DNA of 36,562 nt, taken from the NCBI GenBank assembly GCA_902788785.1, contig CADALT010000024.1:1-36562 (forward strand). The letters run 5' to 3'. Shown piece by piece: positions 10,255-35,673 of the stretch. The notes under the pieces are model-generated. The model did not search any database, had not been told where the DNA came from, and was given only the letters and a program-made list of their open reading frames with translations. Origin of the DNA: an uncultured Ruminococcus sp. GTDB lineage: Bacteria; Bacillota; Clostridia; Oscillospirales; Ruminococcaceae. The position numbers and the translations under genes are program-made. Within the stretch, counting starts at the first letter, position 1; every line of letters begins with the position of its first letter.

Positions 10255-10336
10255 CAAGTGGACTATGTAGAATTTCTAATGTCATTTACTATAGCAAAGA
10301 GCTTAATACGTTATCACAGAATGGATGGTGGAAAAC

Positions 10337-14645: not shown

Positions 14646-14780
14646 CGGAGGGATAAATATGTATGCAGAACTTTTAACGCAGGATGTTCAGACAGCTGCG
14701 AGCGAAACGACCTTCGGGGTCTGGTTCATGATAGCCGTTGCACTGGTATTTTTCATGCAGGCAGGCTTCGCAATGGTTGA
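14601..14780 (+). CDS. Putative leader ORF running through the amt terminator
   Basis: AAGGAGG (14589-14595) sits 5 bases before ATG 14601, opening a frame of 59 codons that runs through the terminator stem and into amt in another reading frame, stopping at 14780. The amino-acid sequence (starting MSVTKVRDMSTLNFF) is not recognised. A ribosome using this start would melt or block the terminator, so it may be a regulatory ORF, not a protein gene. It may also be chance. Confidence 0.35.
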   Translation: MSVTKVRDMSTLNFFRRDKYVCRTFNAGCSDSCERNDLRGLVHDSRCTGIFHAGRLRNG

Positions 14781-16437
14781 GGCAGGATTCACAAGGGCTA
14801 AAAACGCAGGAAACATCATCATGAAAAACCTGATGGATTTCTGTATCGGTACAGTGGCATTCATCGCCATAGGCTTTGGTCTGCTGCTGGGCGAGGACGC
14901 CATGGGACTTATAGGCAAGCCGGGGTTTGATATTTTCACAGCCTACGGCAGTTTTCAGTGGGATCAGTTCGTATTCAATCTGGTATTCTGTGCGACCACG
15001 GCTACCATCGTTTCGGGCGCAATGGCTGAGAGAACAAAGTTCCTCTCCTACTGCGTATACTCGGGTATCATCAGTGCGCTGATATATCCCATCGAGGCTC
15101 ACTGGATCTGGGGCGGCGGCTGGCTGGCACAGCTGGGCTTCCACGATATCTCGGGTTCATGTGCGATACACATGGTCGGCGGTATCTGTGCACTGATCGG
15201 TGCTAAGATGGTAGGTCCCAGGATAGGCAAATTCACAAAGACCAAGGACGGCGAGATCAAGGTAAACGCTATCCCGGGTCACAACCTGACACTGGGTGCG
15301 CTGGGCGTATTCATACTGTGGTTCGGCTGGTACGGCTTCAACCCTGCGGCAGCTTCAAGCGTAGGTCAGCTGGACTCCATCTTCCTTACAACAACTGTCG
15401 CACCTGCCATCGCAACAGTTACCTGCATGGTATTCACATGGCTCAAATACGGCAAGCCCGATGTTTCCATGTGCCTGAACGCTTCGCTGGCAGGTCTTGT
15501 GGGCATCACAGCAGGCTGCGATGTCATGGACTGCTTCGGCGCTATAATGGTAGGTATCGTTTCGGGATTTTTAGTATGTTTCGGTGTATGGTTCTTAGAT
15601 CACAAGCTGCACATCGATGACCCCGTGGGCGCTGTCGGTGTACATATGATGAACGGCATCTGGGGCACTATCGCAGTTGGTCTTTTCGCAACAAAGTCAG
15701 CTCCCGGATATGCTATACAGGCAGCAAGCGGCGGTATCGCTGCAGAGGGTCTGTTCTACGGCGGCGGCTTTACACAGCTGGGACTTCAGCTGCTGGGCTT
15801 TGTATCCGTAGCAGCCTGGTCAGCAGCAGCTATCACTGTAACTTTCGTTATCATCAAGCACACACTGGGTCTGAGAGTTTCCGAACAGGAAGAAGTTCTG
15901 GGTCTTGATGTTACAGAACACGGTCTGGTATCGTCTTATGCCGACTTCGCACCTTCAATGGGTGATGCAAGTATGCTGGGCTATACAAAGGACGATGCAA
16001 AGAGCGTAAAGAGAGTACCCGTAAGCAAGGCCATCGAGGTGGAGAGCTATACTACACCATCTCTTGACGGTACACCAAAGCTTACAAAGATCGTAGCTAT
16101 CTTCAAGCAGCAGCATTTGCAGGAATTCGTTGCTGCAATGGAGGATATAGGTGTGACGGGCATCACTGTCACAAACGTGCTGGGCTGCGGTATCCAGAGA
16201 GGTCAGGCGCACTATTACAGAGGCGCTAAGCTGGAGGCTACCCTGCTGCCAAAGGTAAAGGCTGAGATAGCAGTCTGCAAGGTGCCTGTTGAGAAGGTCA
16301 TCGAGACAGCCAGCGCTGTACTGTACACAGGCAACATCGGTGACGGCAAGCTGTTCATCTACGACCTTGAAAACGTCGTAAAGGTAAGAACAGGCGAACG
16401 TGGCTGTGCAGCATTGCAGGATGTGAGCGCAAGCTAA
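14659..16437 (+). CDS. amt: Ammonium transporter with fused C-terminal PII domain
   Basis: A 592-residue fusion. Residues 1 to about 410 are an 11-TM Amt/MEP ammonium channel: the VEAGFTRAKNAGNI segment, the ATTATIVSGAMAER signature, and the pore histidines H171 (AIHMVGG) and H329 (GVHMMNG). After a linker of about 60 residues, residues 474-585 form a complete GlnB/GlnK-type PII domain, with T-loop near 508-528, LPKVKAEI, and ATP-site TGNIGDGKLFIYDLENVVKVRTGE. PII normally binds Amt as a separate protein and plugs the pore when 2-oxoglutarate is low; here sensor and channel are one chain. The Tyr51 uridylylation site is Leu525, so covalent control is unlikely. GGAGGG precedes ATG 14659. Confidence 0.93.
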   Translation: MYAELLTQDVQTAASETTFGVWFMIAVALVFFMQAGFAMVEAGFTRAKNAGNIIMKNLMDFCIGTVAFIAIGFGLLLGEDAMGLIGKPGFDIFTAYGSFQWDQFVFNLVFCATTATIVSGAMAERTKFLSYCVYSGIISALIYPIEAHWIWGGGWLAQLGFHDISGSCAIHMVGGICALIGAKMVGPRIGKFTKTKDGEIKVNAIPGHNLTLGALGVFILWFGWYGFNPAAASSVGQLDSIFLTTTVAPAIATVTCMVFTWLKYGKPDVSMCLNASLAGLVGITAGCDVMDCFGAIMVGIVSGFLVCFGVWFLDHKLHIDDPVGAVGVHMMNGIWGTIAVGLFATKSAPGYAIQAASGGIAAEGLFYGGGFTQLGLQLLGFVSVAAWSAAAITVTFVIIKHTLGLRVSEQEEVLGLDVTEHGLVSSYADFAPSMGDASMLGYTKDDAKSVKRVPVSKAIEVESYTTPSLDGTPKLTKIVAIFKQQHLQEFVAAMEDIGVTGITVTNVLGCGIQRGQAHYYRGAKLEATLLPKVKAEIAVCKVPVEKVIETASAVLYTGNIGDGKLFIYDLENVVKVRTGERGCAALQDVSAS

Positions 16438-17090: not shown

Positions 17091-17540
17091 TTAAATATAA
17101 TACATATAATTCTCTTTTTTGTCCGAGTTATCACGGTACTCCGAGATAAGGTCCGCAAGGGTCATGCGCTCGGTAAAGCGGCGCATATAACCGTTGAGTT
17201 TATCCCACAGACATGAGTTCACAGAAGAACGTATGCCGCCTGCTTCCTCACCGCCGTTTTCCGCAACATCAGCAAGAATACTGTTATCCAGAGCATTCAG
17301 TATATCGCAGAGATATATCTTATCCGCAGGACGTGACAGCACGTAGCCGCCCCTTGAACCTTTCTGACCTCTTACAAATCCGCCCTGTCTCAGCCCGATG
17401 ATTATCTGCTCCAGATATTTCTGAGAGATATTCTGCCGTTCCGATATATCCGCAGAGGACACTGCATTGCCGTTCTCGCTGTTGATGGCGATATCAGTCA
17501 GGGCGATCAATCCGTATTCCACTCGTGTTGAAACTTTCAT
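17091..17540 (-). CDS. Rrf2-family transcriptional regulator (suf operon)
   Basis: A 149-residue Rrf2-type winged helix repressor: KVSTRVEYGLIALTDIA start, HTH around ISERQNISQKYLEQIIIGLRQGGFVRGQKGSRGGYVLSR. It lacks the three-cysteine Fe-S ligand set of IscR; the whole protein has only Cys78 and Cys110, so it resembles CymR-type sensors of cysteine status more than iron-sulfur sensors. It overlaps sufU by 4 bases and closes the suf operon, so it likely regulates it. TCCTA-N9-TAGGA in the suf promoter leader is the likely site, repeated at the CooS-like operon. Confidence 0.88.
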   Translation of the reverse strand: MKVSTRVEYGLIALTDIAINSENGNAVSSADISERQNISQKYLEQIIIGLRQGGFVRGQKGSRGGYVLSRPADKIYLCDILNALDNSILADVAENGGEEAGGIRSSVNSCLWDKLNGYMRRFTERMTLADLISEYRDNSDKKENYMYYI

Positions 17541-17977
17541 GGTGCCCCCCCTTGTCCATAGTTATCCAGAAGACCGCAGAGAGTCTTCCAGCCGAGGGTC
17601 GCACACTTTACTCGTGCAGGCATTTTAGAGATATTTTGCAGCGCTCCTGCTTCTTCCAGCTCATCAAGCTCGTCCTCTGAGATCTCGCCGCCTATCATTT
17701 TGGTGAAAAGTCCGCTGAGATGACGTGCTTCATCAAGGGTCTTGCCAATGACGAGATCAAGCATTATATCGGTGGAAGCCTGCGAGATGGCACAGCCCAC
17801 GCCCGTGAACGAACCATCCTTTATCACACCGTTTTCGATATTCAAATGCAGGGTAAGGGAGTCACCGCAGGTAGGGTTCAGACCATCGTTCGAGCAGGTA
17901 GCACAGCTAAGTTCATGCAGGTGCATGGGGTGGAGATTATGGTCGATAAGCACCTCATTATAGAAATTATCCGCCAT
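17537..17977 (-). CDS. sufU: SufU-type Fe-S scaffold/sulfur-transfer protein
   Basis: A 146-residue IscU-fold protein of the SufU type. Three conserved cysteines that bind zinc or cluster: Cys37 in NPTCGDS with Asp39, the GCAISQASTDIM cysteine, and the final one in KCATLGWKTLC. The 18-21-residue insertion typical of SufU (GEISEDELDELEEAGALQ) is present between the second and third cysteine. SufU accepts persulfide sulfur from SufS. It overlaps sufS by 11 bases and Rrf2 by 4, both signs of coupling. Confidence 0.93.
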   Translation of the reverse strand: MADNFYNEVLIDHNLHPMHLHELSCATCSNDGLNPTCGDSLTLHLNIENGVIKDGSFTGVGCAISQASTDIMLDLVIGKTLDEARHLSGLFTKMIGGEISEDELDELEEAGALQNISKMPARVKCATLGWKTLCGLLDNYGQGGAP

Positions 17978-19190
17978 AGCCCATTCGCCCCCTTATGCTT
18001 TTAAGTGTGGTCAGGAACTTTTCGATGTCCTGCTCATCGTTATAATACGCAAGGCTCATCCTTGCAGTGGACTGTATCCCCAGATGCTCATGCAAAGGCT
18101 GTGCGCAGTGATGACCTGCTCTGATGGCGATATTGTCGCTGTCGAATATGGCTGCGATATCGTGGGGATGAACACCGTCAACAGTAAATGTGATTATCCC
18201 GTGGTGCTCCTGCGCCTTGTCCGAGCCCACAATATGAACATGGTCGATTTTTTTCATCTCGTCAAAAGCCAGTGCAGTCAGCTCGCTCTCACGGCGTGTG
18301 ATATAGTCATAGCCGACCTCATTGGTGATATAGTCTATTGCCGCATGAAGTCCCACTGCTCCGCCGACATTTACAGTACCTGCTTCAAATTTATGGGGCA
18401 GTTCCGCAAAGGTCGCACTGTACTTTTTGACCACGTCGATCATTTCACCGCCGTACAGAAAAGGCGGCATTTTATCAAGAAGCTCTTCACGTCCGTAAAG
18501 CACGCCTATGCCCATGGGCGCATAAAGCTTATGCCCCGAAAATGCGAGAAAATCCACACCGAGATCAGCCACGTCCACCGCCATATGAGGCACGCTCTGT
18601 GCACCGTCGCAGATGATAACTGTCCTATTTTTGTGACAGATATCCGCAAACTCCCTGATGGGATTTATCCTGCCGAATACGTTGGATACCTGGGCTATGG
18701 CGAAGAGTTTCGTTTTGGGTGTAAGAGCATTTTTCAAGCTTTCAACAGAGTATCCGCCATGCTCATCACATTCAAGATAATTCAGCTTTGCACCGGTTTT
18801 GTTGGCAAGTATCTGCCAAGGCAGAAGGTTTGAATGGTGCTCGGATACTGCAATGAGTATCTCATCATCTTCTGCAATATTAGCATTGCCCCAGCTGTAT
18901 GCAATAAGATTCAGGCTTTCGGTGGCATTGCGTGTGAAAACTATCTCCTTAGTGCTTTTTGCGCCAATAAATCTGCGCACGGCTTCACGGGCATTCTCGT
19001 ATGCATCGGTCGCCTTGACGCTCAGGTCGTAAAGTCCACGCAGAGGGTTCGCATTCTCCTCACGGTAGTATCTCTCCACTGCATCGAGCACCTGTGCAGG
19101 CTTCTGGGTAGTTGCCGCATTATCCAGATAGACCAAATTTTTGTACACTTCAAAAGTCGGCACAGCACTTTTGAAATTTACCTTACTCAT
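17967..19190 (-). CDS. sufS: SufS cysteine desulfurase
   Basis: A 407-residue group II PLP-dependent cysteine desulfurase that takes sulfur from cysteine and passes it to SufU. Signature segments: NLVYLDNAATTQKP, the VFTRNATESLNLIAYSW binding loop, DGAQSVPHM, FSGHKLYAPMG with the PLP lysine, and RAGHHCAQPLHEHLG with the active-site cysteine near residue 362. The start is taken at 19190 (MSKVNFK), inside the last codons of sufD, an 8-base overlap. An upstream in-frame ATG would extend far into sufD and is less likely. Confidence 0.95.
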   Translation of the reverse strand: MSKVNFKSAVPTFEVYKNLVYLDNAATTQKPAQVLDAVERYYREENANPLRGLYDLSVKATDAYENAREAVRRFIGAKSTKEIVFTRNATESLNLIAYSWGNANIAEDDEILIAVSEHHSNLLPWQILANKTGAKLNYLECDEHGGYSVESLKNALTPKTKLFAIAQVSNVFGRINPIREFADICHKNRTVIICDGAQSVPHMAVDVADLGVDFLAFSGHKLYAPMGIGVLYGREELLDKMPPFLYGGEMIDVVKKYSATFAELPHKFEAGTVNVGGAVGLHAAIDYITNEVGYDYITRRESELTALAFDEMKKIDHVHIVGSDKAQEHHGIITFTVDGVHPHDIAAIFDSDNIAIRAGHHCAQPLHEHLGIQSTARMSLAYYNDEQDIEKFLTTLKSIRGRMGYGG

Positions 19191-20070
19191 CTTCCTCACC
19201 CCACTGCAAAGCCTCTGAAATACGGGCTTTGGTTTGATCGTCACCTATCTTGGAGATGACCTGCATGAGCCTGGAGCGTGCCGCAAGCTCATATATTTTT
19301 TCTTCGCTGATTCCCCTGGACTTCATGTAGAAGATGTGGTTTTCATCCAGCTTGCCGATGGATGCGCCGTGGCTGCCCTCCATGTCTTCCTCTGCACAGA
19401 GTATCAGCGGAACTGTACGGTTTTTTACCCTGCTATCCAAAAGCAGTACATTCTCCTTCTCGCTGCCCTTGGCCGCCTTTGCGCCTGTTTTGAAATCGAT
19501 AGTTCCCTTGAAAGTTTTTTCTGCTGTGTCTTCAAGCACACCGTTAACGGTTATCTCGGAGGTGCTTTTTTTGCCGAAATGTTCAGCTATCAGGTTGATA
19601 TCAAGCTTGTCCTCACCTGTCAGGCGGTAGCCTATATCCGCTGTAAAAGCAGCGCTGCGGCCTGCAAGCTCGGTCTTTATCTCGCTGACTGTCTTCTCGC
19701 CGCCAAGATATACCTGCACAAGCTCAAATACGGCATTTTCATCGACCTTTGCGGCTACTTCGGAAACTGCGCCTGTCTCATTCTCAAAGACCTGCACCAG
19801 CCTTACTTTTGCCCCGTTATGCACATTTATTTCTGTCGCAAGGGATATTTCGCCCGACGACTTGATATACTGCACGACCTCGGAAGTCTCACCGTTTTGG
19901 GCATCTATTGTAAATTTCGAGCTTTCCGTCACATCGTTCCTGATGATATCCTTGTCCGCAGAAACGCTCACATTTTTAGTTTCATATTTTTTGATCTCAT
20001 GTTCTACCCCGTTAACACCGAGCCAGCGAAAAGTCGGTACAGGGAGCTTATTCAAAATTGTCTTTTCCAT
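19183..20070 (-). CDS. sufD: SufD subunit of the SufBCD assembly complex
   Basis: A 295-residue SufD-like protein with the SufB/SufD beta-helix core. It is shorter than the E. coli protein (423 residues) and lacks much of the N-terminal helical region, as seen in other clostridial SufD proteins. The C-terminal SHGASIGKLDENHIFYMKSRGISEEKIYELAARSRLMQVISKI matches the conserved end that contacts SufC. It lies 12 bases after sufB. Together with SufB and SufC it forms the scaffold on which Fe-S clusters are built. Confidence 0.9.
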   Translation of the reverse strand: MEKTILNKLPVPTFRWLGVNGVEHEIKKYETKNVSVSADKDIIRNDVTESSKFTIDAQNGETSEVVQYIKSSGEISLATEINVHNGAKVRLVQVFENETGAVSEVAAKVDENAVFELVQVYLGGEKTVSEIKTELAGRSAAFTADIGYRLTGEDKLDINLIAEHFGKKSTSEITVNGVLEDTAEKTFKGTIDFKTGAKAAKGSEKENVLLLDSRVKNRTVPLILCAEEDMEGSHGASIGKLDENHIFYMKSRGISEEKIYELAARSRLMQVISKIGDDQTKARISEALQWGEEDE

Positions 20071-20082
20071 GATATTCTCCTC

Positions 20083-21492
20083 CTAGCCGATACTTCCCTG
20101 CATCTCAAGACCGATAAGATTGTTCATCTCAACCGCATATTCCAGCGGCAATTCCTTTGATACATTATCCGCAAAGCCACGCACTATCATCGCCTTGGCT
20201 TCGTTCTCGCTAAGACCTCTGGACATGAGATAGAATACAGCCTCATCACTTATCCTGCCGATCTTAGCCTCGTGTCCGATATCTGCTTTATCGGTCCTTA
20301 TGTCCATCACGGGCACGGTATCGGAACGGGATATGCTATCGAGCATAAGCGACTCGCAGTTCACTGCCGACTTGCTTCCCACTGCATTTTCCTTGACCAC
20401 AACAGCACTTCTGAATGTGCTTACTCCGCCGCTCTTCGAGATGGACTTTGTATCCATGTATGAAGAAGTCTCGGGCGCATTATGCACGATCTTCGCACCG
20501 GTGTCAAGATTCTGACCCTCGCCTGCGAAGGTTATACCCGTGAATTCTGCGCTTGCACCTCTGCCGTTTAATATGCTCATAGGATAGAGGTAGCTTACGT
20601 GCGAACCGAAGCTGCCCGACACCCACTCGATCTTGCCGCCTTCTTCCACAAGCGCACGCTTTGTATTCAGGTTATACATATTCTTCGACCAGTTTTCAAT
20701 AGTGGAATAGCGCAGTGTTGCGCCTTTGCCCACATAAAGCTCTACACAGCCTGCGTGCAGTGCCGCCTCGTAATATTTTGGCGCCGAACAGCCCTCTATA
20801 AAGTGCAGATACGAGCCTTCTTCCAGGATTATCAAGGTGTGCTCAAACTGACCTGCTCCCCTTGCATTAAGTCTGAAATATGACTGTAACGGTATTTCCA
20901 AGTGTACATTTTTCGGTACATATACAAATGAGCCGCCCGACCACACCGCACCGTGCAGTGCTGCGAATTTATGATCTGTGGGAGGAACGAGCTTCATGAA
21001 ATGCGTGCGTATCAGATCGGCATACTTCGGGTCATGCATTGCGCTTTCAAGGTCGGTATAGATAACGCCGGACTCCGCAACCTCCTTGCGCACATTATGG
21101 TAGACCAGCTCGCTGTCATACTGCGCACCCACGCCTGCCAGGCTCTCACGCTCTGCCTGAGGTATGCCAAGGCGTTCAAAGGTCTCCTTGATATCCTCGG
21201 GAACATCCTCCCAGTTGGTATTCATACGGCTTTTCTGACGTATGTAGGTAACGATATTGTCAAGGTCGAGCCCCTCGATGGACGGGCCCCAATCTACCAT
21301 GGGAGTTTTATTATATATTTCCAGCGACTTCAAACGCAGTTCCCTCATCCAATCCGGATCGCCTTTTTCGTCGGATATCTCTTTGATTATATCTGTGCTG
21401 ATACCGCTGTCGAGGAATTCGCCCTCGTCCTCCTCATAACGGAAATCGTACAACGAACGGTCTATATCAGCGACCTGTGTTTTCTCTTTCAT
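20083..21492 (-). CDS. sufB: SufB scaffold subunit
   Basis: A 469-residue SufB. The conserved C-terminal NCESLMLDSISRSDTVPVMDIRTDKADIGHEAKIGRISDEAVFYLMSRGLSENEAKAMI carries the cluster-linked cysteine and the SufC-contact helix. The N-terminus has the usual SufB extension (DIKETFERLGIPQAERESLAGVGAQYDSE). ATG at 21492 is favoured, with GGGGTG just upstream; a GTG two codons earlier is possible. It begins two bases after the sufC stop. Confidence 0.95.
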   Translation of the reverse strand: MKEKTQVADIDRSLYDFRYEEDEGEFLDSGISTDIIKEISDEKGDPDWMRELRLKSLEIYNKTPMVDWGPSIEGLDLDNIVTYIRQKSRMNTNWEDVPEDIKETFERLGIPQAERESLAGVGAQYDSELVYHNVRKEVAESGVIYTDLESAMHDPKYADLIRTHFMKLVPPTDHKFAALHGAVWSGGSFVYVPKNVHLEIPLQSYFRLNARGAGQFEHTLIILEEGSYLHFIEGCSAPKYYEAALHAGCVELYVGKGATLRYSTIENWSKNMYNLNTKRALVEEGGKIEWVSGSFGSHVSYLYPMSILNGRGASAEFTGITFAGEGQNLDTGAKIVHNAPETSSYMDTKSISKSGGVSTFRSAVVVKENAVGSKSAVNCESLMLDSISRSDTVPVMDIRTDKADIGHEAKIGRISDEAVFYLMSRGLSENEAKAMIVRGFADNVSKELPLEYAVEMNNLIGLEMQGSIG

Positions 21493-21494
21493 GC

Positions 21495-22241
21495 TCACAC
21501 CCCACTGACTATCGACTCAAAACCATTTTCCAGCACATTATAAGCCAGCTGTCCGCTGCCCTCTTTAGCCACCTTGCCATCAAGGAGTATGTGTGTCCTG
21601 TCCACCTGCATAGCTTCCAGTATCTTCGCATTATGGGTGATTATAAGCAGCGTGCCGCCCACCTTTTTGCGGTACTCTTCAATGCCCTTGGAAACGGTCT
21701 TTACCGCATCCACATCAAGTCCCGAATCGGTCTCATCCAGTATGGCAAGCTTAGGCTCCAACACCAGCAGCTGAAGTATCTCCGCCTTTTTCTTCTCACC
21801 GCCCGAAAAGCCCACATTCAGGTCACGGTCGGCATACTCACTGTCCATACCCAGCAGTTCCATGGCTGCTTTTAGCTTCTTCTTGAAATCCCAGAGCTTT
21901 ATACGCTTGCCCGTGGTCTGTTCAAGGGCATTTCTGAGGAATTCCGAGAGGGTTATGCCGGGGATCTCTATAGGGTTCTGGAATGAGAGGAATATGCCTT
22001 TCTTTGCCCTTTTATCGGGGCTTTCCTCGGTTATATCTTCACCATCGAACACTATATGTCCGCCTGTTATGTTATATTCCGGGCTGCCCATGATGGCACA
22101 GCCGAGGGTAGATTTACCTGCGCCGTTCTGTCCCATCAGCACATGAGTCTCGCCCTCCCCCACAGTAAGCGATACACCGTGGAGTATCTCCTTATCTTCA
22201 GCACTAACGCTGAGATCATCTATTTTCAACAATTCTGACAT
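21495..22241 (-). CDS. sufC: SufC ATPase
   Basis: A 248-residue ABC-type ATPase of the SufBCD complex: Walker A GQNGAGKST, ABC signature NVGFSGGEKKKAEI, Walker B KLAILDETDSGLDVDA and H-loop ITHNAKIL. It is cytoplasmic and not a transporter. ATG at 22241 (MSELLKID) has AAAGGA 8 bases upstream; the in-frame ATG three codons earlier has none. First gene of the operon sufC-sufB-sufD-sufS-sufU-rrf2. Confidence 0.96.
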   Translation of the reverse strand: MSELLKIDDLSVSAEDKEILHGVSLTVGEGETHVLMGQNGAGKSTLGCAIMGSPEYNITGGHIVFDGEDITEESPDKRAKKGIFLSFQNPIEIPGITLSEFLRNALEQTTGKRIKLWDFKKKLKAAMELLGMDSEYADRDLNVGFSGGEKKKAEILQLLVLEPKLAILDETDSGLDVDAVKTVSKGIEEYRKKVGGTLLIITHNAKILEAMQVDRTHILLDGKVAKEGSGQLAYNVLENGFESIVSGV

Positions 22242-22266
22242 TTGTATCATCCTTTCAAAAAAGTTT

Positions 22267-22323
22267 TCCTATTTCTTAAATAGGATTTATATGTATTATA
22301 GCACACATTTCCTACCATGTCAA
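22267..22323 (-). promoter_or_regulatory. suf operon promoter and Rrf2-type operator
   Basis: Minus strand TTGACA (22318-22323), 17-bp spacer, TATAAT (22295-22300). Around the start of transcription is TCCTA-N9-TAGGA (22267-22285), extending to a CCTATTT-N3-AAATAGG palindrome. A 19-bp site with the same ends sits at the CooS-like operon promoter. Proposed Rrf2 binding site. Confidence 0.7.
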
Positions 22324-25635: not shown

Positions 25636-25665
25636 AGCCCCTGTCGGGAAGACAGGGGCTTTTTC
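25636..25665 (+). terminator. Terminator of the EAL gene
   Basis: AGCCCCTGTC (25636-25645) and GACAGGGGCT (25651-25660) form a perfect 10-bp stem followed by TTTT. Confidence 0.88.
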
Positions 25666-25681
25666 ATCGTCTGAAATCATA

Positions 25682-25996
25682 TTATCTTTTCTCGGATATG
25701 ATACTGCGGATAGTATTCTCGGGGTCTTTTATGAGCACGATGACTGTCCATAGCACCAGTGCCAGCACCACGGTGGAAAGTCCTAAAAACGTGTCATTCA
25801 CCAGTTCTGCCGCAGATGGCATGAAGTATACTGCGCCGTCCTCCAGATAGCCCACAGCCGCATCCACCAGCCACATCAGCGACGCGCCCCAGAACATATA
25901 GAGCAATACGCCTGTTTTGAGCTTTCTCGCCTTGGGTGAAGTGTACCAGATAAGTGTGCAGACGACTGCTGCAAGTATCGTTATGAGCAATGTCAT
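25682..25996 (-). CDS. Small membrane protein, last gene of the CooS-like operon
   Basis: A 104-residue protein with three predicted membrane segments (about residues 2-18, 28-50 and 68-90). Not recognised. There are no obvious metal-binding motifs or cysteines. It overlaps the preceding gene by 4 bases (ATGA), so it is translated with it. It is the last of six genes running from the binding protein to here. Confidence 0.7.
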   Translation of the reverse strand: MTLLITILAAVVCTLIWYTSPKARKLKTGVLLYMFWGASLMWLVDAAVGYLEDGAVYFMPSAAELVNDTFLGLSTVVLALVLWTVIVLIKDPENTIRSIISEKR

Positions 25997-26367
25997 GAAG
26001 TTGCACCCGCTTTCTCGACAGTTTCGTTTTTCGCAGCTTTAAGGTGTTTTTCCGCCGCCACCGTCAGTGCCCATACCGCCGTCACAAGCACTGCCATCGC
26101 TGTGCCCGATGTCGCCATCTCATGGAGCATCTCAGCGGTATCCGCAGGGTCTGATGCTGCCGTCAGGAACGGGAAGAACGGCGATATCTCACCGTGCCAG
26201 AGGTGCTCGAAAGCCAGCAGTCCCGAGCCGCCCCAGAGCATACCGTTAAGTCTGCCCAGCCTGTTTATAAAGCTTATTTTGTTCTCGTCCTTTACCTTAT
26301 CGGCAAGAGTTTTGTTTAATACCGTGGTCACCACAGCCTCAGCTGTGGGCACTAAAAAGCAAGCCAT
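25993..26367 (-). CDS. Small membrane protein downstream of the CooS-like gene
   Basis: A 124-residue protein with two or three membrane segments: residues near 40-60 (LNGMLWGGSGLLAFEHLWHG) and 85-105 (MAVLVTAVWALTVAA), plus the N-terminal ACFLVPTAEAVVTTVL. Two His residues (FEHLWH) sit at a membrane edge. The family is not recognised. It begins 11 bases after the CooS-like stop with AAGGAGG, and overlaps the next gene by 4 bases. Possible partner of the CooS-like protein or the transporter. Confidence 0.72.
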   Translation of the reverse strand: MACFLVPTAEAVVTTVLNKTLADKVKDENKISFINRLGRLNGMLWGGSGLLAFEHLWHGEISPFFPFLTAASDPADTAEMLHEMATSGTAMAVLVTAVWALTVAAEKHLKAAKNETVEKAGATS

Positions 26368-26378
26368 ACTTATCCTCC

Positions 26379-28484
26379 TTATTTATCCCAGCCCAGAGCT
26401 TTCCTCTTTGCTTTCATATCTTCAACTATCTTTTCGCCCAGCTTTACGGGGTCTGTATCCACATTCATGGACGAGCCCAGTGTTTCGAGCGTACCGTATT
26501 TCAAAAATTCTATAACGTTCTTTGAGCCGTATATCTGCGCTTCAACACAATGGTAGGAGCTTATGCCGTTGAGCCTGAAACCGAGGGCAGCATCTATGCC
26601 CTTTTCGTTGCCCCATTCGGGGGAAGAGAATGCGTAGGGCAGTTCATACATCTTATGACCCAGTTCGTTGGCTATGCCTGCAAATATTCCCGAAGAACGT
26701 GTATTGTCGATACATTCGCCAACGTGCCATACAGGCGGCAGGTCGGGTGTCAGGAACTCTCTGAGGCTGTCCCCTGCCTTGTCTATGCCCGATACTGCAC
26801 AATAACCCAGCTTCATCAGCGGGAACGATGCACAGCCGTTGGAGATTATCAGCACATTGTTTTTAAGCAGCACATCAGCCACATCGACTATGCACTTCTC
26901 GTAAAGCACCTTGGGATTATTGCAGCCCACCATGTTGACGATACCCAGTATCCTTCCGTCACGTATCGCATCAGCCAGCGGCTTGAAGCTGCCGAAACGC
27001 TTGCAGATGTACTCCACCGAGAAGCCCACCTCAGCTTCGACCTCGTAGGGCGGTATGTACACGGGTATGCCCTTTCTCGCCTCAAAGCTGTCAATTGCAC
27101 GGCGGACTATCTTCTCAGCCAGCTCCTTGGTCTCACCGATATTTGAGTGGTGATGGTCATACTCATAACGTTCTGCACCGGGCAGTCTTGCAGACTCTGA
27201 TGTGGTAACAACCACTGTCTTGAAGCAGTGTGCGACCTCCATTATGGACGGGAAAACGTCCTGCACATCAGCCACCCAAAGGTCCAGCGCACCTGTGCCC
27301 AGCACCAGTTCAGCCGAGACCGCATTCGACAGCGGCACTACGCCTGCATATCTGTACATAGCCGAAAGTCCCGAACAGCAAATACCGTAAAATCTTATGC
27401 CCTTTGCGCCCTTGGACTTAGCCAGTTCTATCAGGTCATCACGCTTGCCTGCTTCAACTATCTGGCTTACCAGCAGCGGCAGATGTCCGTGTACTGCGAT
27501 ATTCACATAGCCCTTTTCCAGCGCACCGATATTGACCTTTGATGTCACTCTGTCGCCTACACCGAACAGGCTGTCTGTTGCGATAGATGCGCCTACGACT
27601 CCCGAGAAAGTGAACGCAAGTCCGCACCTCAGGAACTGCTGCATCACCGAGCGCCAGTCGCCGTCCGTGGCACAGCCTGATTTATGATACGCCTCAAAAA
27701 CCTCGTGATATGCGCTGACAGGCAGTATATCAAGATCCTTCCAGACCTGCTGTCTTTCGGGCAATGCACAGGCGGATATAGTCTTATACTCGTCGGGAAC
27801 AGTTCTCGAAAGATCGTCCAGCAATGCGTCCGCAAGATCTTTTGCGACGTTTTTCAGCTGTCTGTTCTTCTGCTTTATGCCGAAAGCTTCGGCGGTAGAA
27901 CGTATCTTCTGTTCGCCCAGTATCGGCACATCGAGCTTGCCCTCCGCTGCCCATTTGAGCGCCAGCATAACTTCCCTTGCGTGCATACCGTGCTGTGCTG
28001 CACCTGCTGCCGCCGAACGCAGCAGATTTCTCGCAACGATGAGGTCAGCATCGGCACCGCATACGCCCTTGGGTGCTTTTGCAGTGATACGACATGGACC
28101 CATGTTACATATCTTACAGCATATGCCTGCAAGCCCGAAATTACACTGGGGCTTCTGCTTGTCAAAACGGTCAAAAGCAGTATCTATACCCAGCTGTTCC
28201 ATGCGCAGGAGCATCTCTCTGACCGCAGGGTCGGGGGTCTGTTCGATGACATCCTGCTTGCTGGGGAAAGTTTTGCGGTATTCCGAGACCGCATTCATAT
28301 AATCCTTGATGAAAGCTTCTCTGTCCTCTTCACCGCCCTCGTTATGGTCGGACTTCAATATGACCGTAGGCACACCATGTTCATCGAAGCCTATGATATT
28401 TCGGTGAGAATGTATGTGTGCAGGACCGTGGTCATGGTGGTCATGATGGTGTTCGTGGTGGTGTTCGTGATTATGTTCACTCAT
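26379..28484 (-). CDS. CooS-family protein with altered C-cluster ligand (deviant CO dehydrogenase)
   Basis: A 701-residue protein homologous throughout to the anaerobic Ni-CODH catalytic subunit. D/B-cluster cysteines are intact: Cys114, 122, 123, 126, 131 (CNFGLAGICCKICNMGPC) and Cys142 (GVCGAD). C-cluster region: VHGH histidines near 332-334, Cys370 (GICCSG), Cys521 (MVGCNNP), Cys551 (SNGCAS) and Cys591 (VGECIDN) are present, and so is Lys628. The segment ADVQDVFPS has Asp409 where true CODHs have DVQC, so a cluster-ligand cysteine is missing. Proteins lacking one canonical cysteine, such as CooS-V of Carboxydothermus hydrogenoformans, have a hybrid Fe-S-O cluster and no CO oxidation activity. 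The N-terminus has 14 His in 27 residues. ATG 28484 has CAGGAG 9 bases upstream. Substrate unknown. Confidence 0.9.
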   Translation of the reverse strand: MSEHNHEHHHEHHHDHHDHGPAHIHSHRNIIGFDEHGVPTVILKSDHNEGGEEDREAFIKDYMNAVSEYRKTFPSKQDVIEQTPDPAVREMLLRMEQLGIDTAFDRFDKQKPQCNFGLAGICCKICNMGPCRITAKAPKGVCGADADLIVARNLLRSAAAGAAQHGMHAREVMLALKWAAEGKLDVPILGEQKIRSTAEAFGIKQKNRQLKNVAKDLADALLDDLSRTVPDEYKTISACALPERQQVWKDLDILPVSAYHEVFEAYHKSGCATDGDWRSVMQQFLRCGLAFTFSGVVGASIATDSLFGVGDRVTSKVNIGALEKGYVNIAVHGHLPLLVSQIVEAGKRDDLIELAKSKGAKGIRFYGICCSGLSAMYRYAGVVPLSNAVSAELVLGTGALDLWVADVQDVFPSIMEVAHCFKTVVVTTSESARLPGAERYEYDHHHSNIGETKELAEKIVRRAIDSFEARKGIPVYIPPYEVEAEVGFSVEYICKRFGSFKPLADAIRDGRILGIVNMVGCNNPKVLYEKCIVDVADVLLKNNVLIISNGCASFPLMKLGYCAVSGIDKAGDSLREFLTPDLPPVWHVGECIDNTRSSGIFAGIANELGHKMYELPYAFSSPEWGNEKGIDAALGFRLNGISSYHCVEAQIYGSKNVIEFLKYGTLETLGSSMNVDTDPVKLGEKIVEDMKAKRKALGWDK

Positions 28485-28505
28485 TGTAAGCATCTCCTGT
28501 AAAGA

Positions 28506-29276
28506 TCAAATGTTATATTCAATATAGTCCTCGGCTTTCATGTTGAAAAGCTCGAATATCTTGTCACGCACATAGAGGAAGTCCTCGTTGGTGCGGTCAC
28601 GGTGTGAACCCAGCGGCACTTTAACGATACTTTTTATCCTGCCGGGGTCAGCCATCATTACAACTATCCTGTCCGAAAGATATACTGCCTCTTCGATATC
28701 GTGGGTCACGAATATCATGGTCTTTTTCTCCTCACGGGAAATTTTCAGTATATCCTCCTGCAATTTCATTCTGGTTATTGCATCCAGTGCGCCGAAGGGT
28801 TCATCAAGAAAGATGATGTCGGGGTCTGCCGCAAGACCTCTTGCTATGGAGACTCTCTGCTGCTGACCGCCCGAAAGCTGTCTCGGATAGCGCTTCTCAT
28901 AGCCCTCAAGTCCCACCAGTTTCAGATACTTAGCGCAAAGCTCATCTCGCTGTGCTTTGGGAACTTTTCTTGCATCAAGCCCCAGCTCGATATTCTTTCT
29001 TACATTTCTCCAGGGCAACAGACCGTAGTTCTGGAAGATGGTTATATTGCGCACCGAAGGCTCTTTGACCTCTTTGCCATCTATTTTCACGCTGCCGCTG
29101 TTCAGCTTTTCAAAACCTGCCAGAGTGTTCAGCAGCGTGCTCTTACCGCAGCCCGAGGGTCCCAGCAGGCAGATGAATTCGCCCTTGTCAATATCCAGCG
29201 AAACATTATCCAGCGCATTGAATTCCTTGCCGTCCTGAACATATTTTTTGCAGGCATCTTTAACTTCTATATACAC
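28506..29276 (-). CDS. ABC transporter ATP-binding protein (NitT/TauT type)
   Basis: A 256-residue SsuB/TauB-like ATPase: Walker A LGPSGCGKSTLL, Q-loop NYGLLPWRN, signature LSGGQQQRVSIARGL, Walker B DIIFLDEPFGALDAI, and H-loop FVTHDIEEAVYLSD. The start is taken at GTG 29276, with GGGGAGG 8 bases upstream and one base after the permease stop; the longer GTG overlaps the ribosome-binding site. Members move nitrate, sulfonates, taurine, bicarbonate, or riboflavin- or thiamine-related compounds; the substrate here is unknown. It belongs to the CooS-like operon. Confidence 0.93.
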   Translation of the reverse strand: MYIEVKDACKKYVQDGKEFNALDNVSLDIDKGEFICLLGPSGCGKSTLLNTLAGFEKLNSGSVKIDGKEVKEPSVRNITIFQNYGLLPWRNVRKNIELGLDARKVPKAQRDELCAKYLKLVGLEGYEKRYPRQLSGGQQQRVSIARGLAADPDIIFLDEPFGALDAITRMKLQEDILKISREEKKTMIFVTHDIEEAVYLSDRIVVMMADPGRIKSIVKVPLGSHRDRTNEDFLYVRDKIFELFNMKAEDYIEYNI

Positions 29277-29277
29277 G

Positions 29278-30036
29278 CTACACACCTCCCCAGGCTTTGA
29301 GAATACGTTTTTCTATGAGTTTAAGCGCACCGTCCAGAAGTATACCAATGACGCCGATGACCAGTATGGTCGCAAGTAGTATATCCGCACGGATATTGTT
29401 CCTTGCATCTATAAGCTGATAGCCGAGCCCGGACTGTGCGCCGACCATCTCGCCTGCCACCAGGAATATCCACGCTGTACCCAGTGCAAGATGTATGCCG
29501 TTGGCTATCTGCGGAAATGCTGCGGGGAATACGACTTTCCAGGTCAGTGCAGGCTGAGTTATGCCGAAATTCTTTGAAACTTTCAGGTATATGGGGTCGA
29601 TGTTCTTTACCGCAGCCACCGTTGAAAGCAGCACAGGGAAGAACGCCGCAATGAATATCATTGCTATGGCAGGTATATCGCCTATACCAAAAAGCAGTAC
29701 GATAAACGGCATCCACGCTGTGGGCGATATGGGACGCAGCAGCTGCAATGCAGGGTCGATATACTTGAAAAGTCCGGGTATCCTGCCCAGTATGAGTCCC
29801 AGCACCACTGCTGCCAGCACCGAGCTCAGATAACCTGCGGCAAAGCGGTACATACTGGTGGAGATATTCTCTGCCAGCTTACCGTTGTACACCATTTCGA
29901 CCAGTGCATCAAGTGCCATCTTAGGTGATGGGAACAGCGCCTTATCATAGCTGCTGACTGTGAACAGCAGCTGCCATATCAGTATCAGAGCTGCCAGCGA
30001 TATAACAACATTTTTCAGAGAGATCAGTTTTTTCAT
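29278..30036 (-). CDS. ABC transporter permease (SsuC/TauC type)
   Basis: A 252-residue inner-membrane permease with about six membrane segments. The binding-protein-dependent transport motif is around residues 155-185 (NFGITQPALTWKVVFPAAFPQIANGI), the EAA-like loop that meets the ATPase. It follows the binding lipoprotein by 14 bases and is followed directly by the ATPase gene. Typical length for the NitT/TauT family. Confidence 0.93.
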   Translation of the reverse strand: MKKLISLKNVVISLAALILIWQLLFTVSSYDKALFPSPKMALDALVEMVYNGKLAENISTSMYRFAAGYLSSVLAAVVLGLILGRIPGLFKYIDPALQLLRPISPTAWMPFIVLLFGIGDIPAIAMIFIAAFFPVLLSTVAAVKNIDPIYLKVSKNFGITQPALTWKVVFPAAFPQIANGIHLALGTAWIFLVAGEMVGAQSGLGYQLIDARNNIRADILLATILVIGVIGILLDGALKLIEKRILKAWGGV

Positions 30037-30050
30037 GGTATCACGCCTTA

Positions 30051-30974
30051 TCAGAGATCATTTTTAACAAAATCGGAATATGCAGGAGGCTCTTCAGAAA
30101 GCCCGTAGGACTTGACCTTTTCCACCAGTGCATCATAAGCTTCTTCGGTTATCTCAAGGTCATCGTAAGATATCCACTCCAGAGACATATCCAGCACTTC
30201 ATCGGACTGCGAGAGATATTTCTTTGCAGTTTCCTTAGCCTTCTCCTTGGTGAGTTCGGCACCTGCCGCTTTGTAGCTGTCAACGAAGTTCTTTGCGTCC
30301 TCGGGACGTTCGTTTATGAACTTATCGGTCAGCACCAGACCGCAGCAGATGGAGTCCTCCCACAGTTCATCAGACCTGTACAGCACCTTGCCTGCACCGA
30401 TGGAAACTCCCATTGCCCCGAAAGGTTCAGCCACACAGTAAGCATCTATCTGTCCGCTTGCCAGTGCCGAGGGCATCTCGGTGGGGGCAAGCTCGGTGAT
30501 ATTCACATCTTCTACTGTCAGCCCTGCCTTTGCCAGCGCATCATTTATCAGTATATTATGAGATGACTGCCTGTGGGGTATGGCGATGTTTTTGCCTTTT
30601 AAGTCCTCCGCAGACTCGATATCGTTCTTCACCACGATCACATTGCCGTCATGATGTCCCAGCGCCACCGCCTTGATGCCTATACCCTCCTGCTTGGACT
30701 TCATTGCCAGTTCCATCAGCACCGAAGCTCCGTCAACACGGTTTGAGTTGAGCGCATCTGTAAGTTCGTTCCATGAGCCGTACTTGACCAGTTCGACCTT
30801 TACGCCCTCCTTAGCCTCCAGTTCATCAGCTTCCTCCAGCACTGCCAGCGAATGGGTTATGGGCAGATAGGCTATCCTGACCACTTTTTCGTCCTTTGTC
30901 TCACTCTTGCCGCAGGCTGTTGCCGACAGGGCTATGACCGCAGCTGTCACTATCGCAGATATTTTCTTTTTCAT
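30051..30974 (-). CDS. ABC substrate-binding lipoprotein (NMT1/SsuA-like)
   Basis: A 307-residue binding lipoprotein: signal MKKKISAIVTAAVIALS with lipobox ATAC, then an NMT1/THI5/SsuA-type two-lobe fold. Typical segments: RIAYLPITHSLAV, YGSWNELTDALNSNRVDGASVL, GKNIAIPHRQSSHNILINDAL, TEMPSALASGQIDAYCVAEPFG. The start is taken at 30974 (MKKK) with AAAGGAAG 8 bases before; an ATG 12 codons upstream lacks an SD. The ligand cannot be read from sequence; the pocket segment includes HHDGN. First gene of the CooS-like operon. Confidence 0.9.
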   Translation of the reverse strand: MKKKISAIVTAAVIALSATACGKSETKDEKVVRIAYLPITHSLAVLEEADELEAKEGVKVELVKYGSWNELTDALNSNRVDGASVLMELAMKSKQEGIGIKAVALGHHDGNVIVVKNDIESAEDLKGKNIAIPHRQSSHNILINDALAKAGLTVEDVNITELAPTEMPSALASGQIDAYCVAEPFGAMGVSIGAGKVLYRSDELWEDSICCGLVLTDKFINERPEDAKNFVDSYKAAGAELTKEKAKETAKKYLSQSDEVLDMSLEWISYDDLEITEEAYDALVEKVKSYGLSEEPPAYSDFVKNDL

Positions 30975-31028
30975 ATAAATACTTCCTTTCATATCAATCA
31001 TATTATTCATAGTTATTTACTAGGTGTT

Positions 31029-31062
31029 ATTTTACAACATTTATCCTAGTTTGTCAATAGGA
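31029..31062 (-). promoter_or_regulatory. Promoter and Rrf2-type operator of the CooS-like operon
   Basis: Minus strand TTGACA (31052-31057), 17-bp spacer, TAAAAT (31029-31034). TCCTA-N9-TAGGA (31044-31062) overlaps the -35 box. The same arms and spacing occur at the suf promoter. A second repeat, ACTAGG (31019-31024) with CCTAGT (31045-31050), flanks the -10 box. Confidence 0.72.
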
Positions 31063-33993: not shown

Positions 33994-35673
33994 ATGGAAG
34001 TTGTGAAGAAAGCCCGTGTCAAGGCGACAGAGGAAAAGCTTAAGCCGAAGCTTTTCTCCGTATTAAAGGGGTATACACCTCAGCAGTTCATCAAGGACGT
34101 TACCGCAGGTGTGATAGTTGCGATAATCGCACTGCCTTTGTCTATCGCACTGGCGCTGGCATCGGGCGTTAGTCCCGAGCAGGGTCTGTATACTGCGATA
34201 GTTGCAGGTTTCCTCGTATCGTTCTTAGGCGGCAGCCGTGTGCAGATAGCAGGGCCCACAGCCGCATTCGCCACGATAGTTGCAGGCATAGTCGCATCTC
34301 AGGGCATGGACGGTCTGGTCATATCGACCATAATGGCAGGCATGATAATGATAGTCATGGGTCTGTGCCGCTTCGGCAAGCTGATAAAGTACATACCCGG
34401 TACGATCACCTCGGGTTTCACATTTGGTATCGCCGTGACCATACTAATTGGACAGATCAAGGACTTTCTGGGACTTACTTTCAAGAATTCCCCCATCGAG
34501 ACCGTTGACAAGGTCGAAGAGATATTCAGATGTATCGGTACTATCAACCCTATGGCTGCGCTGATAGGACTTATCTCGCTGGCAATACTCATACTCTGGC
34601 CCAAAAAGCTGGAAAAGATACCTGCCTCGCTGATAGCTGTCATCGTATGCTCTGCCATAGTAAAGCTGACTGATATGAACGTAAACACCATCGGCGACCT
34701 GTACACCATATCCAACCAGCCCCCAAAGTTCGCTCTGCCCGAGGTAAGCTTTGCAAGGATAAGGTCGCTTGCGCCATCAGCTTTCACCATCGCACTGCTG
34801 GCAGCAGTGGAATCTCTTCTCTCCTGCGTGGTCGCAGACGGTATGATAGGTTCAAAGCACCGCTCGAATATGGAGCTTATCGCACAGGGTGCAGCTAACA
34901 TCGGCTCGGCACTTTTCGGCGGTATACCTGCAACAGGCGCCATCGCAAGAACCGCCGCTAACGTAAAGAACGGCGGCAGAACTCCTATCTCGGGTATGGT
35001 ACACTCGGTGGTCGTACTGCTGATACTTGTACTCCTTATGGGATATGCAGAGCTGATACCCATGCCCACCATCGCAGCTATACTTTTCATCGTAGCTTAC
35101 AATATGAGCGGCTGGAAAAATATCAGAGATACCATAAAGACAGCCCCCAAGAGCGATATAGCTGTTCTGCTGACCACTCTGGTGATGACAGTGGTATTCG
35201 ACCTTGTGGTAGCCATCGGCGTTGGCATGGTAATGGCTTCACTGCTGTTCATGAAGAGAATGGCTGATGTCACCGAGGCACACACCTGGGTAGATGATGA
35301 CGATGAGGACACCGACCCCGATAATATCCAGCTGAAACATATACCCGAACATACAAAGGTATATGAGATAAACGGTCCCATGTTCTTTGCAGCTGCCGAG
35401 AAGTTCAGCTATATGCTGGATGATGAGGATACCGATGTACTGGTGATCCGTATGCGTAACGTGCCTGCTGTGGACGCATCGGGCGTTGCTGCACTGACAG
35501 ACGTTGTCGAGCGCTGCGGCAAGAAGAATATCAATGTGGTATTCTCCCACGTAAACGAACAGCCCATGCACGCCATGCAGAAGGCAGGTCTCACCGAGAC
35601 CGTGGGCAGCGAGAATTTCTGCGACCATATAGATACCGCACTGCTGCGTGCGCAGGAGATAGTATCTACCTGA
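33994..35673 (+). CDS. SulP-family anion transporter with STAS domain
   Basis: A 559-residue SLC26/SulP carrier: about 10-14 membrane segments over residues 33-420 with the SulP signature LPLSIALALASGVSPEQGLYTAIVAGF, the GPTAAFATIVAG pore segment and a GGIPATGAIARTAANVKNGGRTPISG loop. The C-terminal STAS domain (about 440-555) follows an acidic linker (WVDDDDEDTDPDN); its VDASGVAALTD loop is the usual STAS phosphorylation-site region. Members carry sulfate, bicarbonate or dicarboxylates; not decidable here. ATG behind GGGAG. Confidence 0.92.
   Translation: MEVVKKARVKATEEKLKPKLFSVLKGYTPQQFIKDVTAGVIVAIIALPLSIALALASGVSPEQGLYTAIVAGFLVSFLGGSRVQIAGPTAAFATIVAGIVASQGMDGLVISTIMAGMIMIVMGLCRFGKLIKYIPGTITSGFTFGIAVTILIGQIKDFLGLTFKNSPIETVDKVEEIFRCIGTINPMAALIGLISLAILILWPKKLEKIPASLIAVIVCSAIVKLTDMNVNTIGDLYTISNQPPKFALPEVSFARIRSLAPSAFTIALLAAVESLLSCVVADGMIGSKHRSNMELIAQGAANIGSALFGGIPATGAIARTAANVKNGGRTPISGMVHSVVVLLILVLLMGYAELIPMPTIAAILFIVAYNMSGWKNIRDTIKTAPKSDIAVLLTTLVMTVVFDLVVAIGVGMVMASLLFMKRMADVTEAHTWVDDDDEDTDPDNIQLKHIPEHTKVYEINGPMFFAAAEKFSYMLDDEDTDVLVIRMRNVPAVDASGVAALTDVVERCGKKNINVVFSHVNEQPMHAMQKAGLTETVGSENFCDHIDTALLRAQEIVST

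Follow-up and report, generated by a model that had tools for sequence, protein, structure and literature searches.

The window analysed here, positions 1 to 36,562 of contig CADALT010000024.1 of an uncultured Ruminococcus sp., carries a CooS-type protein that we read, with a probability of about 0.5, as a CooC-independent and probably nickel-containing variant of the clade B (group B-1) carbon monoxide dehydrogenases (CODHs) with a metal supply of its own. The protein has an aspartate at the position of a C-cluster cysteine. This exchange is not new, and by its sequence the protein matches the published clade B and the features of its structural group B-1. What is new is a pair of small membrane-like proteins, x124 and x104, with their nickel-gene contexts, a contrast in the distribution of CooC, and a suf-like operator. 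The gene belongs to a six-gene minus-strand operon in the order binding protein, permease, ATPase, CODH, x124 and x104, with short gaps or none between the genes. Its features are:

25636..25660, minus strand: terminator-like hairpin after x104, at the operon end
25682..25996, minus strand: x104, unannotated membrane-like protein of 104 amino acids, partner of x124
25993..26367, minus strand: x124, unannotated membrane-like protein of 124 amino acids, with conserved M1-A2-C3 and E54-H55-x-W57-H58-G-E60
26379..28484, minus strand: CooS-type protein (prismane/CODH family) with clade B group B-1 features (TIGR01702, PF03063, fold match, alignments)
27258..27260, minus strand: codon of Asp412 (= Asp409) at the CODH-II Cys333 position (translation, alignments)
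28401..28475, minus strand: His-rich N-terminal segment HNHEHHHEHHHDHHDHGPAHIHSHR of the CODH, of low confidence in the structure model
28506..29285, minus strand: ABC transporter ATPase of NitT/TauT type (PF00005; the top-scoring NCBIfam models are NitT/TauT ones, none reaching its cut-off)
29278..30036, minus strand: ABC transporter permease of NitT/TauT type (PF00528)
30051..31010, minus strand: NMT1-like substrate-binding lipoprotein; nearest solved structure 3un6, 40% identity
31029..31057, minus strand: promoter-like TTGACA-17-TAAAAT ahead of the gene for the binding protein (the region has 10 such sites; shuffles predict 8.7)
31044..31062, no strand: palindrome TCCTA-N9-TAGGA over the -35 hexamer, a candidate operator

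The CODH reading frame spans 26379-28493 and encodes 704 amino acids when read from an upstream in-frame ATG at 28493, which is a possible start. The start at 28484 (MSEHNH...) chosen in the initial annotation is the better fit, with an AGGAG 9 nt before its ATG that directly abuts the upstream ATG; Asp409 counted from 28484 is Asp412 in the 704-residue form. The protein scores 493.3 bits against TIGR01702, above the cut-off of 478, and also matches PF03063. Its N-terminus holds 16 histidines within the first 75 residues. The AlphaFold2 model, built with 29 sequences, has a pLDDT of 84.3, with nearly all of residues 1-56 below 50, and superimposes on the canonical Ni-CODH fold of CODH-II with a TM of 0.93 on the target. 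Foldseek places CODHs on top (6t7j, 6elq, CODH-II), and CooS-V appears at rank 48.

An aspartate in place of a C-cluster cysteine had been claimed from the sequence, and the alignments bear this out. We take the aligned columns to correspond to the CODH-II residue numbers used here. In a HMMER alignment that includes CODH-II, the DVQD segment falls on the DYQC/DVQC of 6t7j, 6elq and CODH-II, with no cysteine there, and Asp409/Asp412 occupies the Cys333 position. Across 110 aligned CODHs (the window protein and L002-L110, some partial), this column holds Asp in 99, Glu in 2 (L085, L086) and Cys in 9 (L102-L110), the Cys-type rows each being 33-35% identical to the window protein. The other C-cluster ligands (H337, C373, C524, C554 and C594) and the D/B-cluster cysteines are retained, as the initial annotation had stated, and so are the acid-base residues H168 (CODH-II His93) and K631 (CODH-II Lys563). 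The columns of His337, Cys373, Cys524, Cys554, Cys594, His168 and Lys631 are invariant or have one deviant row each in the 110-row alignment. A departure from CCTGNE in the neighbouring segment was also proposed; this is true only of the TGNE part, since the segment reads GICC and keeps both cysteines. Compared with CODH-II (PDB 1su6), the protein shares the fold, the B/D-cluster cysteines, five of six C-cluster ligands, His93 and Lys563, but it lacks the complete five-cysteine C-cluster of a canonical CO-oxidising Ni-CODH, with Asp at the Cys333 position, and no CooC was found. The earlier view that it is not a canonical CODH is supported.

The same annotation drew a parallel to CooS-V and proposed a reductase mis-annotated as a CODH, a function that is possible but not favoured here. 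The two proteins are alike in having a CODH scaffold with one C-cluster cysteine replaced by a carboxylate. At residue level, however, the parallel fails: CooS-V of C. hydrogenoformans changes the first ligand, with Cys295 replaced by Glu according to the available text of PMC9311411 (PDB 7b7q), and the window protein changes the second, Cys333. Group D-1, which includes CooS-V, is further described in the portions of PMC6344411 at hand as having Tyr at the acid-base His, and no ABC operon appears in that description. The window CODH has neither D-1 substitution, keeping the Cys295 equivalent (Cys373) and the acid-base His (His168). A different substitution at a different ligand means that CooS-V data cannot simply be transferred to the window CODH. 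The hybrid-cluster protein (HCP) model TIGR01703 gives no match to the window CODH at E <= 0.001, and a search of the same assembly with the HCP model gives no match either.

Group B-1 is defined, in the part of Inoue et al. 2019 (PMC6344411) available to us, by a His-rich N-terminus, Asp/Glu at the second C-cluster cysteine and complete acid-base residues, and NitT/TauT ABC neighbours are given as a clade B trait. The window protein has Asp412, the His-rich N-terminus and the NitT/TauT ABC neighbours, together with a Type II D-cluster, the remaining C-cluster ligands and the acid-base His/Lys at the CODH-II positions. Excerpts of a 2026 eLife survey (PMC13056359) present the R. flavefaciens CODH (RfCODH) as a clade B example with ABC genes upstream, report ABC genes in 64% of clade B operons and almost none with a maturase, and state that the function of clade B could not be deduced and that a first biochemical study of any member is awaited. 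A gut survey (PMC11338639, in extract) likewise gives the ABC context without a function. Set against these descriptions (PMC6344411 and RfCODH in PMC13056359, as excerpted), the protein itself shows no difference, and no maturase is found in either. The clade B descriptions in the same excerpts of PMC6344411 and PMC13056359 contain no mention of x124/x104, their nickel-gene contexts or a suf-like operator.

In a 32-row tree built without named clade references, all 23 Asp/Glu rows cluster together at 100/100, joined to the rest by a long stem. This group and L102 are split from the 8 other CODHs (100/100) under a midpoint root, and the L102 branch is long. L102 is a Cys-type CODH of about 36% identity with binding-protein, permease and ATPase genes adjoining, and its position beside the Asp/Glu rows agrees with Cys as the ancestral state of clade B, as published. 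The nearest named genomes by CODH are Ruminococcus, largely from the rumen, at 94-95% identity. The CODH-ABC operon also occurs in metagenome-assembled genomes labelled Spirochaetales, Thermoguttaceae or planctomycete (L027, L053, L060, L061, L073 and L076), with CODHs 84-89% identical; either horizontal transfer or mis-binned contigs would account for these.

The tie between the ABC importer and the CODH, already suggested for the window, is supported across relatives. At least one ABC gene lies beside the CODH in 74 of 80 named loci, and in the other six (L015, L029, L031, L041, L074, L079) the CODH is at a contig end. x124 is found beside the CODH in 33 of the 80, in 10 of these upstream of it instead of downstream; in nine of the ten the ABC genes follow the CODH, and in L074 they are cut off. 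x124/x104 thus remain with the CODH when the ABC genes are on its other side (9 of 33 x124-bearing loci). For the remaining 47 of the 80 loci, among them those of Butyrivibrio, no x124 was found next to the CODH; contig ends truncate some of these loci.

The model of the binding protein (pLDDT 87.8) matches 3un6 from Staphylococcus aureus, with a TM of 0.91 on the target and 40% identity; TauA, SsuA, NrtA and CmpA rank behind it, and the other 49 matches listed have 14-23% identity. The PDB title of 3un6 names zinc, which may originate from crystallisation. H53, H119 and C222-C223 are kept between the two proteins, and these positions are invariant in 23 operon binding proteins. The same homology was noted by Inoue et al. 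(PMC6344411, in the text available), who proposed uptake of a metal, for example nickel, through the importer and its insertion by the His-rich region. Structure titles of solved NitT/TauT-family binding proteins name taurine analogues, sulfonates, nitrate and bicarbonate as ligands. In a separate locus (L163:5698-8248), x104/x124 directly adjoin another NitT/TauT-like ABC ATPase and binding protein, and no CODH was found in that stretch.

x124 and x104 look membrane-like from their hydrophobic stretches, and the residues of x124 conserved across 81 distinct sequences (M1-A2-C3, E54, H55, H58 and E60) could bind metal. Searches against Pfam, NCBIfam and PDB sequences returned chance-level matches only, x124 was not found in viral contigs, and a search of open-licence papers gave no description of either protein. 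They are likewise not described among the nickel genes in the portions of PMC545781 and PMC7782429 that were checked.

LarC inserts the nickel of the nickel-pincer cofactor. Of 391 genomes of the class, 41 carry x124, most of them lacking a full-length CODH match, and LarC is present in 36 of these 41 versus 139 of the 350 others (Fisher p 2e-9; the genomes are related and relatedness is ignored, so the p values for x124 are optimistic). LarC is common without x124 and x124 is rare without LarC; the 139 class genomes with LarC alone indicate that nickel use does not require x124. x104 adjoins x124 in 27 of 30 x124 loci (L113-L142). Lar, urease, Ech large subunit and CODH genes were sought beside x124: LarB/LarC/LarE adjoin it in 18 of 41 genomes (17 by locus inspection, G376 from x124 and LarC coordinates), Ech-like hydrogenase genes in one and a CODH in one, and in 21 of 41 no nickel gene was identified there (5 of the 21 by LarC coordinates only). 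These counts come from partial inspection of about 36 of 41 genomes (30 loci with ~1.5 kb flanks, and 20 stretches with larger flanks covering 5 further genomes), the remaining 6 being judged by LarC coordinates alone and genomes with several x124 copies being incompletely covered. NCBIfam models above cut-off identify LarE and LarB (L154), LarC (L156, L174) and LarB (L173) beside x124.

The Ech-like context, in G072, is the weakest nickel context of x124. Here x124 precedes the Ech-like genes, and the large subunit carries RICGIC and DPCISC, which we take to be [NiFe] motifs; its best NCBIfam model is NADH-quinone oxidoreductase subunit D, below cut-off, as is the match of a HypA-like protein. 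Three genomes of one genus (L150, L151 and L152, in G183, G062 and G029) have x124/x104 while neither LarC nor urease was found in them, and by eye the neighbours in L150 and L151 include a permease-like protein and an aldo/keto reductase-like gene. These genomes are possibly a counter-example to the nickel link, or they have another nickel system.

Within the family, x124 is present in 15 of 148 genomes, distributed as follows:

Beside a clade B CODH (6): G000, G424, G484, G417, G491, G444
Inside urease clusters (3): G392, G499, G505, with urease alpha in all three and UreC and UreG above cut-off for G499
Beside Lar genes (5): G432, G445, G453, G459, G478
Unlinked (1): G492, with LarC elsewhere in the genome

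All six family genomes with an Asp/Glu-type CODH (76-100% identical) have x124 adjoining it, compared with x124 in 9 of the 142 others (Fisher test over all 148, p 4e-7). x124 is absent from the six family genomes with only 29-36% identical CODHs (G452 and G532, with fragmentary CODH matches, left out of this group), five of which have LarC; LarC is present in 3 of 13 other x124-free family genomes. No LarC was found in the six clade B family genomes, and G484 has urease elsewhere. A urease match in G000 (38 positions, 31 bits, just above the model cut-off) was read as another amidohydrolase, and two weak HypB matches in the source genome fall below cut-off. x124/x104 therefore go along with whatever nickel system a genome has, suggesting that the clade B CODH, too, is a nickel system. 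By this guilt by association, x124/x104 look nickel-linked.

The initial annotation reported no CooC, CooF or ACS gene in the window, and none was found among 30 of its 84 open reading frames of at least 90 amino acids scanned with Pfam, the other 54, largely overlapping frames, lying outside the scan; the same 30 include no hydrogenase gene. Elsewhere in the source assembly, which is 90.57% complete, the search found no CooC either (best match 29 bits). A CooC encoded beside a non-B CODH (L187) was used to search 42 genomes. All 14 genomes chosen as having a high-scoring non-B CODH (one being the query's own) give a match of at least 207 bits; this set was picked by high CODH score and is not blind, since a CooC-like gene had already been seen in all seven CODH regions first examined. 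Four of these 14 also carry the clade B type (three Asp/Glu, one Cys-type; G263, G295, G318, G261), and there CooC lies by the other CODH. In contrast, the search found no CooC in any of the 22 clade-B genomes that lack a high-scoring non-B CODH, where scores reach at most 55 bits. This includes six genomes (G136, G201, G222, G242, G366, G112) with a second CODH of 30-32% identity, so the absence of CooC is not peculiar to the Asp type. Nor was it found in six x124 genomes without CODH (G453, G392, G499, G505, G432, G459). An Asp/Glu-type clade B without CooC fits either an enzyme that uses no nickel or a different insertion route.

The CODH operon may share its control with the suf operon of the window, whose features are:

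17091-22285, minus strand: suf operon (names from Pfam), its promoter with two TCCTA-N9-TAGGA-type palindromes
17091..17540, minus strand: Rrf2-family regulator at the suf operon end (PF02082; TIGR00738 above cut-off, CymR and IscR models below)
17537-17977, minus strand: sufU (Pfam)
17967-19244, minus strand: sufS (Pfam)
19183-20070, minus strand: sufD (Pfam)
20083-21498, minus strand: sufB (Pfam)
21495-22250, minus strand: sufC (Pfam)
22267..22285, no strand: second exact TCCTA-N9-TAGGA site, lying after the suf -10 and before sufC

Exact TCCTA-N9-TAGGA occurs at two sites in the 2.95-Mb assembly, both in the window. A reversed control pattern occurs four times, so the number of sites is not notable, and the argument lies in their locations and in the relatives. 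The two promoters have the same layout, with one palindrome over the -35 and another after the -10; by eye, the -35 palindrome is exact in the CODH operon and has one mismatch in suf, and the one after the -10 is exact in suf and has two mismatches in the CODH operon. Among 76 operon-start regions from 86 loci (window included; related regions, not independent), 22 contain a palindrome with at least 9 of 10 matches, whereas 20 shuffles average 0.95 and never exceed 4; with other spacings the counts are 2 (N7), 5 (N8), 1 (N10) and 0 (N11). The Rrf2 regulator is predicted as the likely reader of both palindromes. Such shared suf-like control would tie the CODH to Fe-S status, a prediction compatible with both main readings of the enzyme. 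An inverted repeat around the -10, ACTAGG-N20-CCTAGT, was found in no other locus examined and was dropped for TCCTA-N9-TAGGA. No riboswitch or other RNA was found near the operon, and the whole window gives two chance-level matches.

We infer the nickel content and the reaction of the window CODH from this body of evidence. The enzyme would still assemble a Ni-Fe-S C-cluster, with Asp as ligand of the iron that Cys333 holds in CODH-II. Nickel would enter through the ABC importer, x124/x104 or both, be held by the His-rich tail and be inserted without CooC, and the enzyme would catalyse a two-electron redox step of CO/CO2 type or a closely related one. The operon is probably under an Rrf2 regulator shared with suf, which would make the enzyme track Fe-S cluster status. 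More tentatively, x124/x104 may form an undescribed nickel-handling membrane pair that serves nickel-pincer, urease, Ech-like hydrogenase and clade B CODH systems, with clade B as a CooC-independent Ni-CODH lineage that has an Asp C-cluster ligand. Should nickel handling by x124/x104 prove true, a new family would join the nickel homeostasis of gut and rumen Clostridia. Their recurrence with undisputed nickel enzymes makes the question of whether clade B is degenerate or repurposed testable, as the question of whether nickel is present in the Asp-type C-cluster, and it raises a second one, whether a CODH can mature without CooC.

That CooC was not found in the 22 clade-B genomes lacking a high-scoring non-B CODH counts against nickel, as this would be expected if nickel were unused. 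The nickel reading is also weakened by the 47 of 80 loci in which no x124 was found beside the CODH, by the 21 of 41 class genomes with no nickel gene identified next to x124, and by the three genomes with neither LarC nor urease found. An enzyme with an Fe-S-O hybrid cluster and no nickel, comparable to CooS-V or HCP, with hydroxylamine, NO or another oxidant as substrate under stress, would also agree with the loss of one cluster cysteine; control shared with suf would suit a stress role, and a CODH variant could fill the niche in an assembly that has no HCP model match. This is nonetheless unlikely. CooS-V alters Cys295 and D-1 has Tyr at the His, both of which are kept here with Cys333 altered; the protein scores above the TIGR01702 cut-off, and the HCP model does not match it at E <= 0.001; and x124/x104, which recur with Lar, urease and Ech-like hydrogenase genes, speak more for nickel than for an Fe-S-O cluster free of it. 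The importer allows another account, in which the cluster holds a different metal or is an all-iron cubane and the transporter brings in a small substrate for reduction by the enzyme, for instance an anion like nitrate, cyanate, a sulfonate or bicarbonate. The ligands of solved NitT/TauT-family members agree with this, and the linkage of CODH and importer is the most constant feature of the loci (74 of 80 named loci). We regard it as quite improbable, however, given that the nearest solved binding protein is zinc-titled at 40% identity, versus 14-23% for the other 49 listed matches, and that non-systematic inspection revealed no further shared substrate-processing enzyme.

A decayed CODH that persists as a structural remnant is highly improbable. 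One ligand is changed, a maturase was not found, and a degenerated function is raised as an option for clade B in the available part of PMC13056359. However, dN/dS is 0.03 against L002 and 0.016 against L012, the two measurable pairs of seven (dS is saturated in the other five), and the conserved ligand columns and the 94-95% identity across named Ruminococcus genomes are likewise at odds with decay. Purifying selection on the CODH indicates that the Asp variant is a conserved state, neither an error nor decay.

Elsewhere in the window, the plus strand encodes an esterase with a dockerin domain, a cellulosome-type protein (10325-11608), a 592-amino-acid ammonium transporter fused to a C-terminal P-II domain (14659-16437), and a SulP-type sulfate permease with a STAS domain (33994-35673).
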